Shown here in pieces: positions 46,471 to 50,099 of a stretch of DNA of 64,000 nt. A program made the position numbers and the translations under genes. The stretch spans positions 186,001-250,000 of the forward strand of contig NZ_JAOAMU010000003.1 in the NCBI RefSeq assembly GCF_025154075.1, given 5' to 3'. The stretch is from Chryseobacterium herbae (GTDB taxonomy: Bacteria > Bacteroidota > Bacteroidia > Flavobacteriales > Weeksellaceae). Position 1 is the first letter of the stretch. Every line of letters starts with the position of its first letter. Under the pieces are notes generated by a model, which was given only the letters and a program-made list of their open reading frames with translations, was not told the DNA's origin and did not search any database.

Positions 46471-46542
46471 GCCGACTTAGCTCAGCGGTAGAGTGCTTCC
46501 TTGGTAAGGAAGAGGTCACGGGTTCAAGTCCCGTAGTTGGCT
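46471..46542 (+). tRNA. tRNA-Thr(GGT)
   Basis: Acceptor GCCGACT/AGTTGGC, anticodon stem CTTCC/GGAAG with loop TTGGTAA giving GGT. 72 nt; CCA not encoded. Confidence 0.97.
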
Positions 46543-46551
46543 CTCCAGATT

Positions 46552-46578
46552 TCCCGAATTTCTTTCGGGATTTTTTTT
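46552..46578 (+). terminator. Terminator after tRNA-Thr(GGT)
   Basis: TCCCGAA and TTCGGGA (46564-46570) around a five-base loop, followed by eight T residues. Confidence 0.8.
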
Positions 46579-46596
46579 GCCCAAAAATTTCCAAAC

Positions 46597-46800
46597 TTAA
46601 AATTTAACGAAGCCAAATAATAAACCTACAGATAAAACGATCTCCTGGTTCGTATCAATGTAACAATACTTTCCCCGCCATTCCTTATAGTATTTGATAT
46701 CTGTGAAAGAAACAGGATGCAGCTTCTCTCCCGATTTTAAGACCTGCCTGACGAATATATTATGAACCGAATAATAATTAATGTTAAAAGCTGATTTCCC
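46597..46800 (-). pseudogene. C-terminal fragment of an unidentified protein gene
   Basis: A minus-strand frame open for 67 codons, from a TGA just before 46800 to TAA at 46599-46597. It has no ATG, GTG or TTG start. The translation reads like real protein: it includes VRQVLKSGEKLHPVSF, KYYKEWRGKYCYIDTNQE and ends VLSVGLLFGFVKF, with an alternating hydrophobic end that could be a last membrane strand. I infer the remnant of a truncated gene; the family is not recognised. Confidence 0.45.
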
Positions 46801-46826
46801 TCATGTGTGATATTTGAGATGAAACA

Positions 46827-46834
46827 TATATTTG
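46827..46834 (+). promoter_or_regulatory. -7 element TATATTTG of the Cys-rich peptide gene
   Basis: Located 30 bases before the ATG; TGTG lies 19 bases upstream in the -33 position. Confidence 0.55.
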
Positions 46835-46863
46835 TTATCTAAACTTTAAACCAAAGTATAACA

Positions 46864-47082
46864 ATGAAAAACTTAAAGAAGATTTCAAGAACAGATTTGA
46901 AAGAAATTATTGGTAACGGAGGCGGTATGACATGCCGTGGTGGAGAATGTATGGGTGGTACTGGTGATGATGGGGGTGAAGTAAGATACGTCAGATGCTG
47001 TAAAGAGTTCGCAAATCCTCCTCAGTGTGGAGATTCTTGCGGAACAACATGTGGTAAGGGATATTATGCTCAATACTGTTAA
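46864..47082 (+). CDS. Cys-rich bacteriocin-like precursor peptide
   Basis: The peptide has 72 residues. The first 17 (MKNLKKISRTDLKEIIG) are the typical leader of double-glycine-type peptides in Chryseobacterium, which usually read LSR-x-x-L-K-x-I-x-G-G; here the junction is IIGNGGG, so the cleavage site is uncertain. The remaining 50 or so residues are rich in Gly and carry eight Cys, including one CC pair, and no transmembrane segment. NCBI names such proteins bacteriocin-like; activity is unproven. No peptidase-ABC exporter or modifying enzyme lies nearby. A terminator separates it from a GLPGLI gene. Real gene status is supported by the promoter, leader and terminator. Confidence 0.75.
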   Translation: MKNLKKISRTDLKEIIGNGGGMTCRGGECMGGTGDDGGEVRYVRCCKEFANPPQCGDSCGTTCGKGYYAQYC

Positions 47083-47094
47083 TTAAAAAATCAG

Positions 47095-47120
47095 GCTCCC
47101 GAACAGGGAGCTTATTTTAT
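47095..47120 (+). terminator. Terminator between the peptide gene and the GLPGLI gene
   Basis: GCTCCC (47095-47100) and GGGAGC (47106-47111) around loop GAACA, followed by TTATTTTAT. It would make the peptide mRNA more abundant than the downstream gene. Confidence 0.75.
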
Positions 47121-47125
47121 ATATC

Positions 47126-47938
47126 ATGAAAAAATTTCTTCCAAGACTTATTTCTTTTGTTGTTATTTTTTTTCTGAGCGCTAAGGCTTATTCTCAAAAC
47201 TTAATGTTGGTATATGACTACACGTACAAACCAGACAGCTTATCGGAGAACTCAGAAAAAGAACCTATGTTTTTGTGGATCAACAATAAGCAGTCTACAT
47301 TTGCCAGCTATGAAAGACTGAAAACAGATTCACTCTATCTGCAGGACAAGAAGACCGATTTTACCAATGGGAAAATTTTCTGGAAGATCAATAAAAACCT
47401 TAGTTCCCGAGAAATTACCGAAACTCAGTATTCCTATCCCGTCATGTATTTATTTCCGGATGAAGTAAAATTGAACTGGGAATTAATTGACGAGACAAAA
47501 GAATCTTTCGGATATATGCTCTATAAAGCGAAAACCCGTTTTAGAGGGAGAATCTGGGAAGCCTGGTACTGTCCTAAAATACCCATCAGTGACGGACCTT
47601 TCAAGTTTAGTGGTCTGCCGGGGATAATATTTGAAATTTCTGATACCAGGAATCATCATAGGTTTTCATTAATAAAACTGTACAAAACAGATTTCGATGT
47701 CCTAGGTTTAAAAAGTTCCCTCTTTATAGAAAAGCAGCAAAAAATTTCAAAGAAGGAATATCTGAAATTGAGAAAAATTGAAATAGACGATCCGGCGAGA
47801 GGTTTTAAAGCAGATGTATACAACGGAAAGATTGTTCTGAAAGACAGAGATCCGAAGGAGATCATCAGAGGAATCGAAAAGAAAGCTTTGGAAGACAGGA
47901 AAAAGAATAATAATCCCATTGAACTGAATCAGCGTTAA
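47126..47938 (+). CDS. GLPGLI-family protein
   Basis: The protein has 270 residues with a signal peptide (1-23, ending AKAYSQ), so it is periplasmic or outer-membrane associated. The name-giving motif appears as SGLPGIIFE near residue 160, after WYCPKIPISDGPFKF, a typical arrangement for this Bacteroidota family of unknown function. The gene starts 43 bases after the Cys-rich peptide, and I have seen this type of pairing described for bacteriocin-like peptides in the group, but a functional link is inference. ATG at 47126. Confidence 0.88.
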   Translation: MKKFLPRLISFVVIFFLSAKAYSQNLMLVYDYTYKPDSLSENSEKEPMFLWINNKQSTFASYERLKTDSLYLQDKKTDFTNGKIFWKINKNLSSREITETQYSYPVMYLFPDEVKLNWELIDETKESFGYMLYKAKTRFRGRIWEAWYCPKIPISDGPFKFSGLPGIIFEISDTRNHHRFSLIKLYKTDFDVLGLKSSLFIEKQQKISKKEYLKLRKIEIDDPARGFKADVYNGKIVLKDRDPKEIIRGIEKKALEDRKKNNNPIELNQR

Positions 47939-48000
47939 ATCTAATCTTTAATTTTAATACTCCCGGAAGAAAACGATTGGATACAGCATCGCCAATTAAC

Positions 48001-48030
48001 TTGAATACTCATAAATTTTCGTTAAATTCG
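48001..48030 (+). promoter_or_regulatory. Candidate promoter of the two-component genes
   Basis: TTG (48001-48003), 19 bases, TAAATTCG (48023-48030), seven of eight matches to TAnnTTTG, 18 bases before the ATG. Confidence 0.45.
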
Positions 48031-48047
48031 TATCAAATAAATTTTTG

Positions 48048-48728
48048 ATGAATATTCTTTTATTGGAAGATGACCTTATTCTCTCGGCAGAACTCTGCAG
48101 GTTTTTGGAATCGAACAGCTTTACCTGTGACAAAATCTATGATGGTGAAACCTTTCTCCGTCAGATCAAAAACAATACTTACGACCTGTATTTGCTGGAT
48201 ATTAATGTTCCCAAAATAAACGGGCTGGATGTCTGCCAGACCATCCGTTCTTTCGATAAAAATACACCCATCATCATTATTTCGGCTTACGGAGATATTT
48301 CCGATAAAAAAGATGCCTTCACAAGACTGGCAGACGATTATCTGGTAAAACCTTTTCAGTTTGAGGAGCTCTTGTTAAGAATCAATTCCCTATTGAGACG
48401 AAAAGCACCATCTGATGCGGCGGATCAGGATATCATCAGAGTAGACGACCTTATCATCAATAAAACAGAACAGAAGGTGTACAGAGCAGGCAATGAGATT
48501 GCACTTACACTAAAAGAATTCCAGTTGCTGGTGTATCTTGCCGAAGCGCAGGGAAGGACTGTTTCCAAACAGCAGATCACCGAACACGTATGGGAGCATA
48601 ACTTCAATACGAATACCAATACGGTAGAAGTCTACATCAACTTTCTGCGAAAAAAGATCGATAAAGATTTTAAACTGAAACTGATACACACCCGTTCCGG
48701 TTTCGGATATTACCTAAGCCCATTGTAG
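48048..48728 (+). CDS. OmpR-family response regulator
   Basis: About 226 residues. The receiver domain has acidic residues in LLLEDDLIL, the phosphoacceptor Asp in LYLLDINVPKING, and the Lys in LVKPFQFEEL. The C-terminal winged helix includes LTLKEFQLLVYLAE and NTVEVYINFLRKKID. The ATG at 48048 is preferred over the TTG just before it. It ends directly before the sensor kinase start at 48729, and the efflux genes follow, so it probably controls them, like CusR or CzcR. Confidence 0.93.
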   Translation: MNILLLEDDLILSAELCRFLESNSFTCDKIYDGETFLRQIKNNTYDLYLLDINVPKINGLDVCQTIRSFDKNTPIIIISAYGDISDKKDAFTRLADDYLVKPFQFEELLLRINSLLRRKAPSDAADQDIIRVDDLIINKTEQKVYRAGNEIALTLKEFQLLVYLAEAQGRTVSKQQITEHVWEHNFNTNTNTVEVYINFLRKKIDKDFKLKLIHTRSGFGYYLSPL

Positions 48729-50099
48729 ATGTCTTTAAAAAGAAAGATAGCATTAACGATCAGTATCGCTTTTTCCCTGCTTTTTGCAATGGTGATGGCG
48801 GTTATCTATCTGTCTTTTAATGATTTCAGAAGAGATGAATTCAAGGAAAGGTTCAGACAGCGTCTTGAATTTACCTCCCACTTCATTTCAAAGTCTAAAG
48901 ATTTCGAAGAAGAAGCCCCGATCTTTTTTAACGAAAACTCAGATAACATCCTTCTCAACGAAACCATCTTAATTTTCAACAGCGAGAAAGAGTTAATCTA
49001 CAGCACGATTAAAGACCGTAATGTAACCTGGGACAGTGCCCTTCTCAAGGAGCTGGATGAAAAGAAAATCATATACACGGAAAAAACAGTTCCCGAAATC
49101 TATGCGGCGCTCCGGAATATCAATGGTGAAAATTATTACATCCTCACCAGCGCACTAGATACCAACGGAAAATCGAAACTGGAATACCTGAAATACCTTT
49201 TGATCACAGCTTATGTAATGAGTACTCTTCTGATCGGGTTTTTCAGTTATTACTTTATGGGACAGTTTCTACGCCCTCTGGAAGATCTGAATACCGAAAT
49301 TTCGGAAGTCACAGCTCATAAACTCACCACGCAGATTCCCGTTCAGGAGTCGGACGATGAAATCAATGTTCTGGCTAAATCATTTAATACCATGATTGCA
49401 AGGCTGGATGATGTCTTTCAGTCGCAGAAAGATTTTACGGCAAGTGCTTCCCATGAAATCAGGACTCCTATTACCAGAATGGCATTTCAGCTGGAAAACC
49501 TGATTAAATTTGAGGAACATTCACCAGAGACTTTAACTTCCTTAAAACAGATTCAAAAAGATGTTTATCAATTGTCGGATCTTACCAATTCTCTTTTACT
49601 CCTCACCAAATTTGATAAGGAAAATATTCAGAGTATTTATGAAGAAGTAAGAATTGACGAAGTTATTTTTGAAGCCTTCGAAGCCGTAGAAAAAAGCTAC
49701 CCGTCACTTAAACTGGATTTCCTGATCTCTGAAGATACTTCTGAAAATGGTCTTCTGACGATAAGCGGTATCCAGTCTCTGCTGGTCATCGTCTTTATTA
49801 ATCTTTTTAAAAACGCAGCGGTTTATTCCGATGATGAAGAAGTGGATGTTCTGATTACGGAAACCAACGATCAGCTTACGGTAGATGTTATTTCCCGCGG
49901 CAATACGATTCCTGAAGAAGAACAGGCTAAATTATTTGAAGCCTTTATGCGCGGAAATAATTCTCAAAATATTTCCGGCTCCGGTCTTGGACTTCGAATT
50001 GTAAAAAGAATTCTTGAATACCACGGCGCAGAGATCATATATTCATCTCCTGCTGAACAGACCAATACGTTCAGTATCATCTTTAATAAGCAAATATAA
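48729..50099 (+). CDS. Sensor histidine kinase
   Basis: The protein has 456 residues. A first membrane helix (about 8-28) and a second (about 155-178) enclose a periplasmic sensor domain. HAMP follows, then the dimerisation helix with the phosphorylated His in SASHEIRTPITRM, and an ATPase domain with a SGSGLGLRIVKRIL glycine box. It should phosphorylate the adjacent response regulator. The start codon follows the regulator's stop without a gap. Setting beside a metal efflux system suggests metal sensing, by inference. Confidence 0.93.
   Translation: MSLKRKIALTISIAFSLLFAMVMAVIYLSFNDFRRDEFKERFRQRLEFTSHFISKSKDFEEEAPIFFNENSDNILLNETILIFNSEKELIYSTIKDRNVTWDSALLKELDEKKIIYTEKTVPEIYAALRNINGENYYILTSALDTNGKSKLEYLKYLLITAYVMSTLLIGFFSYYFMGQFLRPLEDLNTEISEVTAHKLTTQIPVQESDDEINVLAKSFNTMIARLDDVFQSQKDFTASASHEIRTPITRMAFQLENLIKFEEHSPETLTSLKQIQKDVYQLSDLTNSLLLLTKFDKENIQSIYEEVRIDEVIFEAFEAVEKSYPSLKLDFLISEDTSENGLLTISGIQSLLVIVFINLFKNAAVYSDDEEVDVLITETNDQLTVDVISRGNTIPEEEQAKLFEAFMRGNNSQNISGSGLGLRIVKRILEYHGAEIIYSSPAEQTNTFSIIFNKQI

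Follow-up and report, generated by a model that had tools for sequence, protein, structure and literature searches.

The window, a 64,000-nucleotide stretch of the Chryseobacterium herbae genome, carries a gene for a Cys-rich precursor peptide, a terminator-like hairpin, and a gene for a GLPGLI protein, in this order and on one strand (Table 1). This arrangement, with eight Cys residues in the peptide, had been read from the sequence alone and is confirmed by the open reading frames (ORFs), profile scores, and a hairpin scan. The putative -7 element (TATATTTG) resembles TAnnTTTG, the consensus -7 element of Bacteroidota promoters; no -33 element was seen by eye at the usual spacing.

Table 1. 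Features of the peptide-GLPGLI locus, in window coordinates
Feature	Position	Strand	Basis
Putative -7 element, TATATTTG	46827..46834	+	Read by eye; resembles TAnnTTTG of Bacteroidota promoters
Cys-rich precursor peptide, 72 aa, 8 Cys	46864..47082	+	ORF, leader domain, purifying selection, relatives
Leader, residues 1-18	46864..46917	+	NF047798 leader_Chryseo, aligned 1-17, E 1.8e-07
Presumed core, after GGG run; start approximate	46927..47079	+	Peptide alignment A1, Cys counts
Terminator-like hairpin, possible attenuator	47093..47113	+	Scan: 8 pairs, loop 5; similar hairpins in related pairs
GLPGLI protein, 270 aa, N-terminal signal-like helix	47126..47938	+	TIGR01200 / PF09697 Porph_ging; structure model; fold matches

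The pair is flanked on one side by a cluster of seven tRNA genes, ending in tRNA-Thr(ggt) (46471-46543; tRNA scan), and on the other by a conserved response regulator gene found in 39 of 40 genus genomes. Among 30 loci fetched around this regulator, two of which end early at a contig end, the pair is present in 2 (the window and G191) and missing within the 1.5-kb flank from 28. In 10 of 16 loci scanned for tRNAs, tRNA-Thr(ggt) lies about 0.2 to 0.75 kb upstream of the regulator, which leaves no room for the pair. Chryseobacterium oleae (L074) and C. antibioticum (L073) carry the pair at the same site as the window. Given the variability of the site, the two genes behave as one cassette that is gained or lost together. 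The tRNA-Thr-to-regulator interval (window 46544-48044) varies across loci L226-L255, and in G060 (L237) it is occupied by a GLPGLI gene on the opposite strand with no leader. The response regulator and kinase genes follow the pair (window 48045-50099). In Riemerella anatipestifer, five GLPGLI genes are listed as directly PhoP regulated in the accessible text of PMC9603813.

The leader scores 31.2 bits against the NCBIfam model NF047798 (leader_Chryseo), above its cutoff of 23.5, and the peptide scores 16.5 bits against NF047792 (CCPGW putative bacteriocin), below its cutoff of 80 and over residues 1 to 18 only. The core has no match in Pfam or NCBIfam, and the whole peptide has no Pfam match at E values up to 1. 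A core-family profile (A1) was built from six related peptides and used to score at most 19 candidates per genome; in the alignment, the presumed core of the window peptide comprises a six-Cys block and an extra Cys pair upstream. C39-type double-glycine leaders carry Gly-Gly, Gly-Ala, or Gly-Ser at the cleavage register. The window leader has Gly-Asn at positions 17 and 18 and a GGG run at positions 19 to 21, and the residues at positions 17 and 18 in 17 core-family peptides are GG (10 peptides), GL (3 peptides), GN (3 peptides), or out of register (1 peptide). The term "double-glycine type" in the sequence-only reading is apt for the leader class, but this leader has GN rather than GG, and the predicted cleavage site of the window peptide is uncertain.

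Cys residues are mostly even in number. The 17 core-family peptides have 6 Cys (10 peptides), 8 Cys (6 peptides), or 7 Cys (1 peptide), giving an even count in 16, and the count is even in all 24 leader-like peptides recovered by pattern from 20 fetched stretches of the same genome, a set that includes some peptides below the family cutoff and not all 42 hits above it. These 42 leader_Chryseo hits over the cutoff often occur in tandem, and most leader hits in the fetched stretches stand, by eye, without a codirectional partner gene.

Both ORFs evolve as genuine genes under purifying selection. In comparisons of the window with the syntenic loci L073 and L074, dN/dS was 0.19 to 0.23 for the peptide and 0.12 for the GLPGLI gene; the corresponding values were 0.008 to 0.029 for the downstream regulator and kinase and 0.044 to 0.128 for an integrase-like gene upstream. 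Positive selection on the peptide was sought and not found (dN/dS of 0.19 to 0.27).

The GLPGLI ORF scores above the cutoffs of TIGR01200 (134 bits; cutoff, 50) and PF09697 (42.1 bits; cutoff, 25) and below that of PF22252 (23.1 bits; cutoff, 27.6). By eye, its N-terminal sequence is signal-like and lacks a lipobox. The structure model (m790712acb939; pLDDT, 86.6; pTM, 0.80) has its best fold match in the N-terminal bowl-like domain of PNGase F-II (PNGF-II; 4r4z and 4r4x; Z, 16.8; rmsd, 2.8; 172 residues aligned), followed by a related PNGase (7zgn; Z, 14.8). PNGF-II was also the sole hit in a profile search (E, 7e-05). A Thermus protein, VioE, LolA, ependymin-related proteins, and RseB match at Z scores of 8 to 10; LolA, RseB, and VioE gave no sequence hit in the profile search, and their half-barrels resemble the model at a Z of about 8 to 9, which may mean a common arrangement only. 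In PNGase F-II the bowl domain is fused to the PNGase, and its function is reported as unknown in the accessible text of PMC9522356. No Cys occupies an invariant or nearly invariant column across 45 GLPGLI proteins, so the GLPGLI protein is not a thiol enzyme in its own right. In Pfam the family is annotated as being of unknown function, and 14 Chryseobacterium genomes contain 4 to 35 GLPGLI matches each.

A terminator scan of a 1.6-kb stretch found three sites, compared with 1.0 ± 1.0 in shuffled sequences, and two of the three are the intergenic hairpin on both strands. An intergenic stem is present in all 17 parsed core-family rows (15 with GLPGLI, two of them the same locus, and 2 with a thioredoxin-like partner), as judged from folds of the native sequences, and is less clear in L020. 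Stem sequences differ between lineages of core-family pairs. Inverted repeats are visible by eye in the unparsed rows (2 with GLPGLI and 1 with thioredoxin). A pair with another core (L134) also has an intergenic stem, and the L078 pair has merely a 10-bp gap.

The pair recurs beyond the window. With the window peptide as the sole query, matches were found in 4 of 296 family genomes, including its own, and GLPGLI lies downstream in all four. In a second collection, 9 named loci matched, and GLPGLI directly follows the peptide in 4 (L073, L074, L076, and L078); the remaining matches cover mainly the leader, and L080, whose core resembles that of L078, has no GLPGLI gene after it. Profile A1 matched at 20 loci, spread over 16 of 320 family genomes, all within Chryseobacterium. 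The gene directly downstream on the same strand encodes GLPGLI in 16 matches, a thioredoxin-like protein in 3, and neither in 1. The three thioredoxin-like partners (L020, L092, and L097) have 372 to 375 residues and a domain matching Thioredoxin_8 (E, 4e-17 to 1e-15), and that of L020 is ResA/TlpA-like; the core of the exception (L093) is of another kind and contains an internal stop. In one of the 16 GLPGLI loci (L091), a stop at codon 4 breaks the peptide frame, and the neighboring GLPGLI gene appears to be full length. Core-family pairs are found at the tRNA-regulator site, in the VKOR exporter cluster, and in other places. Random association of such peptides with GLPGLI genes, named beforehand as the outcome that would count against a joint system, was thus not what the core-family loci revealed.

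The sequence-only reading had noted no known modifying or export gene next to the pair and considered processing in trans. Both points are supported, as no such gene was seen among the ORFs neighboring the peptide, and the genome encodes plausible machinery elsewhere. It has three C39 matches and one VKOR match, and a cluster on contig C8 contains, in order, a core-family peptide, GLPGLI, VKOR-thioredoxin, a leader peptide, a C39-ABC exporter, a leader peptide, and HlyD. The peptide-GLPGLI pair that heads this cluster is a paralogue of the window pair, and the VKOR gene is the sole VKOR match in the genome. The other two C39 matches belong to further peptide systems, one locus with lantibiotic dehydratase and LanC-like genes and one with a radical-SAM gene (C13:17000-33000 [L142] and C12:112000-126000 [L143]). 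Motifs had suggested a degenerate C39 domain at the N terminus of the VKOR-thioredoxin protein, but this idea was dropped for want of support (profile probability, 0.04% with shallow profiles; poor model, pLDDT of 43.7). At E values up to 1e-60, the VKOR protein was found in 174 of the 320 family genomes and, among the matches listed, in 161 of 173 genus genomes. Co-occurrence of VKOR with the core family is uninformative as evidence, because all 16 peptide genomes have VKOR, as do 161 of the 173 genus genomes listed.

The peptide is most likely bacteriocin-like and disulfide bonded, and served in immunity or maturation by an envelope partner of its own. The leading, if tentative, reading is that the window pair is a cassette for a secreted peptide of this kind and its cell envelope partner, which would depend on the C8 cluster for export. 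The leader would be recognized in trans by the C39-peptidase ABC exporter, which would remove it and export the core together with HlyD, and the VKOR-thioredoxin protein would drive the formation of three or four disulfides. Gene order, recurrent pairing, the exporter cluster, the hairpins, and the fold match are observations; export through C8, disulfide bonding, peptide binding, and immunity are deductions from them, the first two being well-motivated predictions. The hairpin would hold the GLPGLI protein at a level below that of the peptide. In the periplasm or outside the cell, the bowl- or LolA-like half-barrel of the GLPGLI protein would bind the peptide, most likely protecting the producer through immunity by sequestration. 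In favor of this reading are the frequency of GLPGLI after core-family peptides in varied settings, its pairing with other cores, the paralogous pair at the C8 cluster, the even Cys counts, the intergenic stems, the fold match, and the likeness to bacteroidetocins. The GN of the window leader, the L080 core lacking GLPGLI, the presence of GLPGLI after only 4 of the 9 named loci, and the scarcity and clustering of pairs among GLPGLI genes count against it. The position of GLPGLI and the lower expression expected for it point to immunity; the thioredoxin-like substitution, and GLPGLI genes that lie close to VKOR with no peptide in front, point to maturation. With low confidence, immunity is placed slightly ahead for the GLPGLI protein.

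It is conceivable, if rather doubtful, that the GLPGLI protein is instead an accessory of maturation or export, acting in folding, selection of disulfide isomers, or periplasmic carriage. The thioredoxin-like protein that replaces it in 3 of the 20 core-family loci, with its domain confirmed in all three, fits maturation better than immunity. The exporter loci of other genomes also bear on this role. Sixty VKOR/exporter loci were hand-picked down the matches listed, regardless of GLPGLI and leaving out the seven core-family genomes with the pair at the VKOR cluster. The exporter and HlyD are both present in 55, and 44 have a leader-like peptide by pattern; peptide labels in these loci, which may reflect only the leader, were excluded from the core-family counts. 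A same-strand GLPGLI gene occurs in 14 of these loci, compared with about 1.0 expected, and the associated P value is only a guide because the genomes are related. In 12 of the 14 it lies upstream of VKOR, 8 within 200 bp and 4 at 0.7 to 2.1 kb, in keeping with such an accessory. A leader peptide ahead of GLPGLI was recognized in 2 of these 12 (L198 and L225); its absence from the other 10 speaks for an accessory and also against the reading of the pair as a C8-dependent cassette. However, 45 of the 60 loci have no GLPGLI gene in the fetched stretch and one more has it on the opposite strand, and a protein without conserved Cys would not itself be the thiol enzyme.

It is improbable that the peptide and the GLPGLI protein are functionally unrelated neighbors brought together mainly by shared descent of a few cassettes and insertion at a variable site. 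Pairing is rare among GLPGLI genes: in seven other genomes, a leader hit lies directly upstream in just 3 of 98 GLPGLI rows (E values up to 3e-4; some rows partial or broken), and in the window genome in 3 of 18. The tRNA-side site also holds other genes, such as the opposite-strand GLPGLI gene of G060. Nevertheless, the chance expectation for the seven genomes is 0.41 (P, 0.008; assuming 0.92 genes per kb), and eight genomes, including the window genome, which was not randomly drawn, give 6 observed against 0.57 expected (P, 3e-05; same gene density). In addition, several GLPGLI lineages and core types are paired; other cores precede GLPGLI in L078/L148, L198, L146/L147, L134, and L225, and a longer leader-like peptide does so in L210. 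A quick tree was built from the 81 GLPGLI proteins of the fetched loci, which are not a random sample; its long branches make placements unsure. On it, the "paired" label changes 8 times (gains or losses), with at least 5 changes forced by starred branches, and clusters much more strongly than under shuffling (mean, 18.8; none of 500 shuffles as low). The strong clustering indicates that many pairs share descent, and the changes and clustering together point to both recurrent pairing and shared descent. The association is not a strict one, since most GLPGLI genes stand unpaired and a related core has no GLPGLI gene after it. Genome G220, with 22 GLPGLI matches and neither a leader hit nor a VKOR match at the thresholds used, implies that GLPGLI also has uses unrelated to the peptide system.

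Single GLPGLI genes were also seen with a small Sec-type two-Cys protein (by eye) within 35 to 216 bp in L064 and L068 (C11:179600 and C13:122130 of the window genome), L119, and L123. The L064 and L068 proteins align with each other at a score equaled by 43 of 2,000 shuffles; homology of these Sec-type peptides to the leader-type cores of L146 and L147 lacks support, as 125 to 780 of 2,000 shuffles scored as high.

A role for the peptide as a signal, perceived by GLPGLI as a receptor or sensor in the envelope and relayed to the adjacent two-component system, is highly improbable. In its favor, the genes that directly follow the pair encode, by sequence, a response regulator and a histidine kinase; the fold matches include the periplasmic stress sensor RseB; and L078 has by eye a regulator-like gene about 0.8 kb downstream. 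Against it, the regulator is present in nearly all of the 40 genus genomes while most of its fetched sites lack the pair within the 1.5-kb flank, and the flanks of other core-family pairs show by eye no such neighbor.

Beyond the window cassette, GLPGLI proteins and the bowl domain may be peptide-binding envelope proteins that recurrently serve disulfide-rich exported peptides of Bacteroidota as cognate partners in immunity or maturation; this generalization is unlikely, and if true it would give the large GLPGLI family its first function. The link to Cys-rich leader peptides and the VKOR/C39/HlyD cluster makes GLPGLI function directly testable, and its recurrence points to many uncharacterized, probably disulfide-bonded peptides in Chryseobacterium. 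The accessible text of papers using the term GLPGLI gives no function for it, the term is absent from PMC10352776, and no paper treating GLPGLI jointly with such peptides was found by title or abstract start in literature mostly outside subscription journals and without bioRxiv.

The sequence-only reading put the pair forward as a candidate for an undescribed secreted-peptide system. The leader class of the peptide is already known in NCBIfam, where NF047798 (leader_Chryseo) is named "bacteriocin-like protein"; the model spans 18 leader positions, and the core, the GLPGLI partner, and the exporter lie outside it. As described in the accessible text of PMC6671954, bacteroidetocins, the proposed class IIf bacteriocins, share with the window system a leader, paired Cys, a C39-type double-glycine peptidase exporter, a thiol oxidoreductase, and an origin in Bacteroidota. 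Deletion of the thiol oxidoreductase attenuates bacteroidetocin activity, and reduced bacteroidetocins migrate differently (PMC6671954). By that description, bacteroidetocins have four Cys and a 42-residue core, whereas window-type peptides have six to eight Cys, and the bacteroidetocin machinery lies beside the peptide, whereas that proposed for the window peptide is on C8, with none seen adjacent. The same text makes no mention of GLPGLI and reports that producers are self-inhibited and that no immunity protein was found, which counts against the immunity reading of the window pair.
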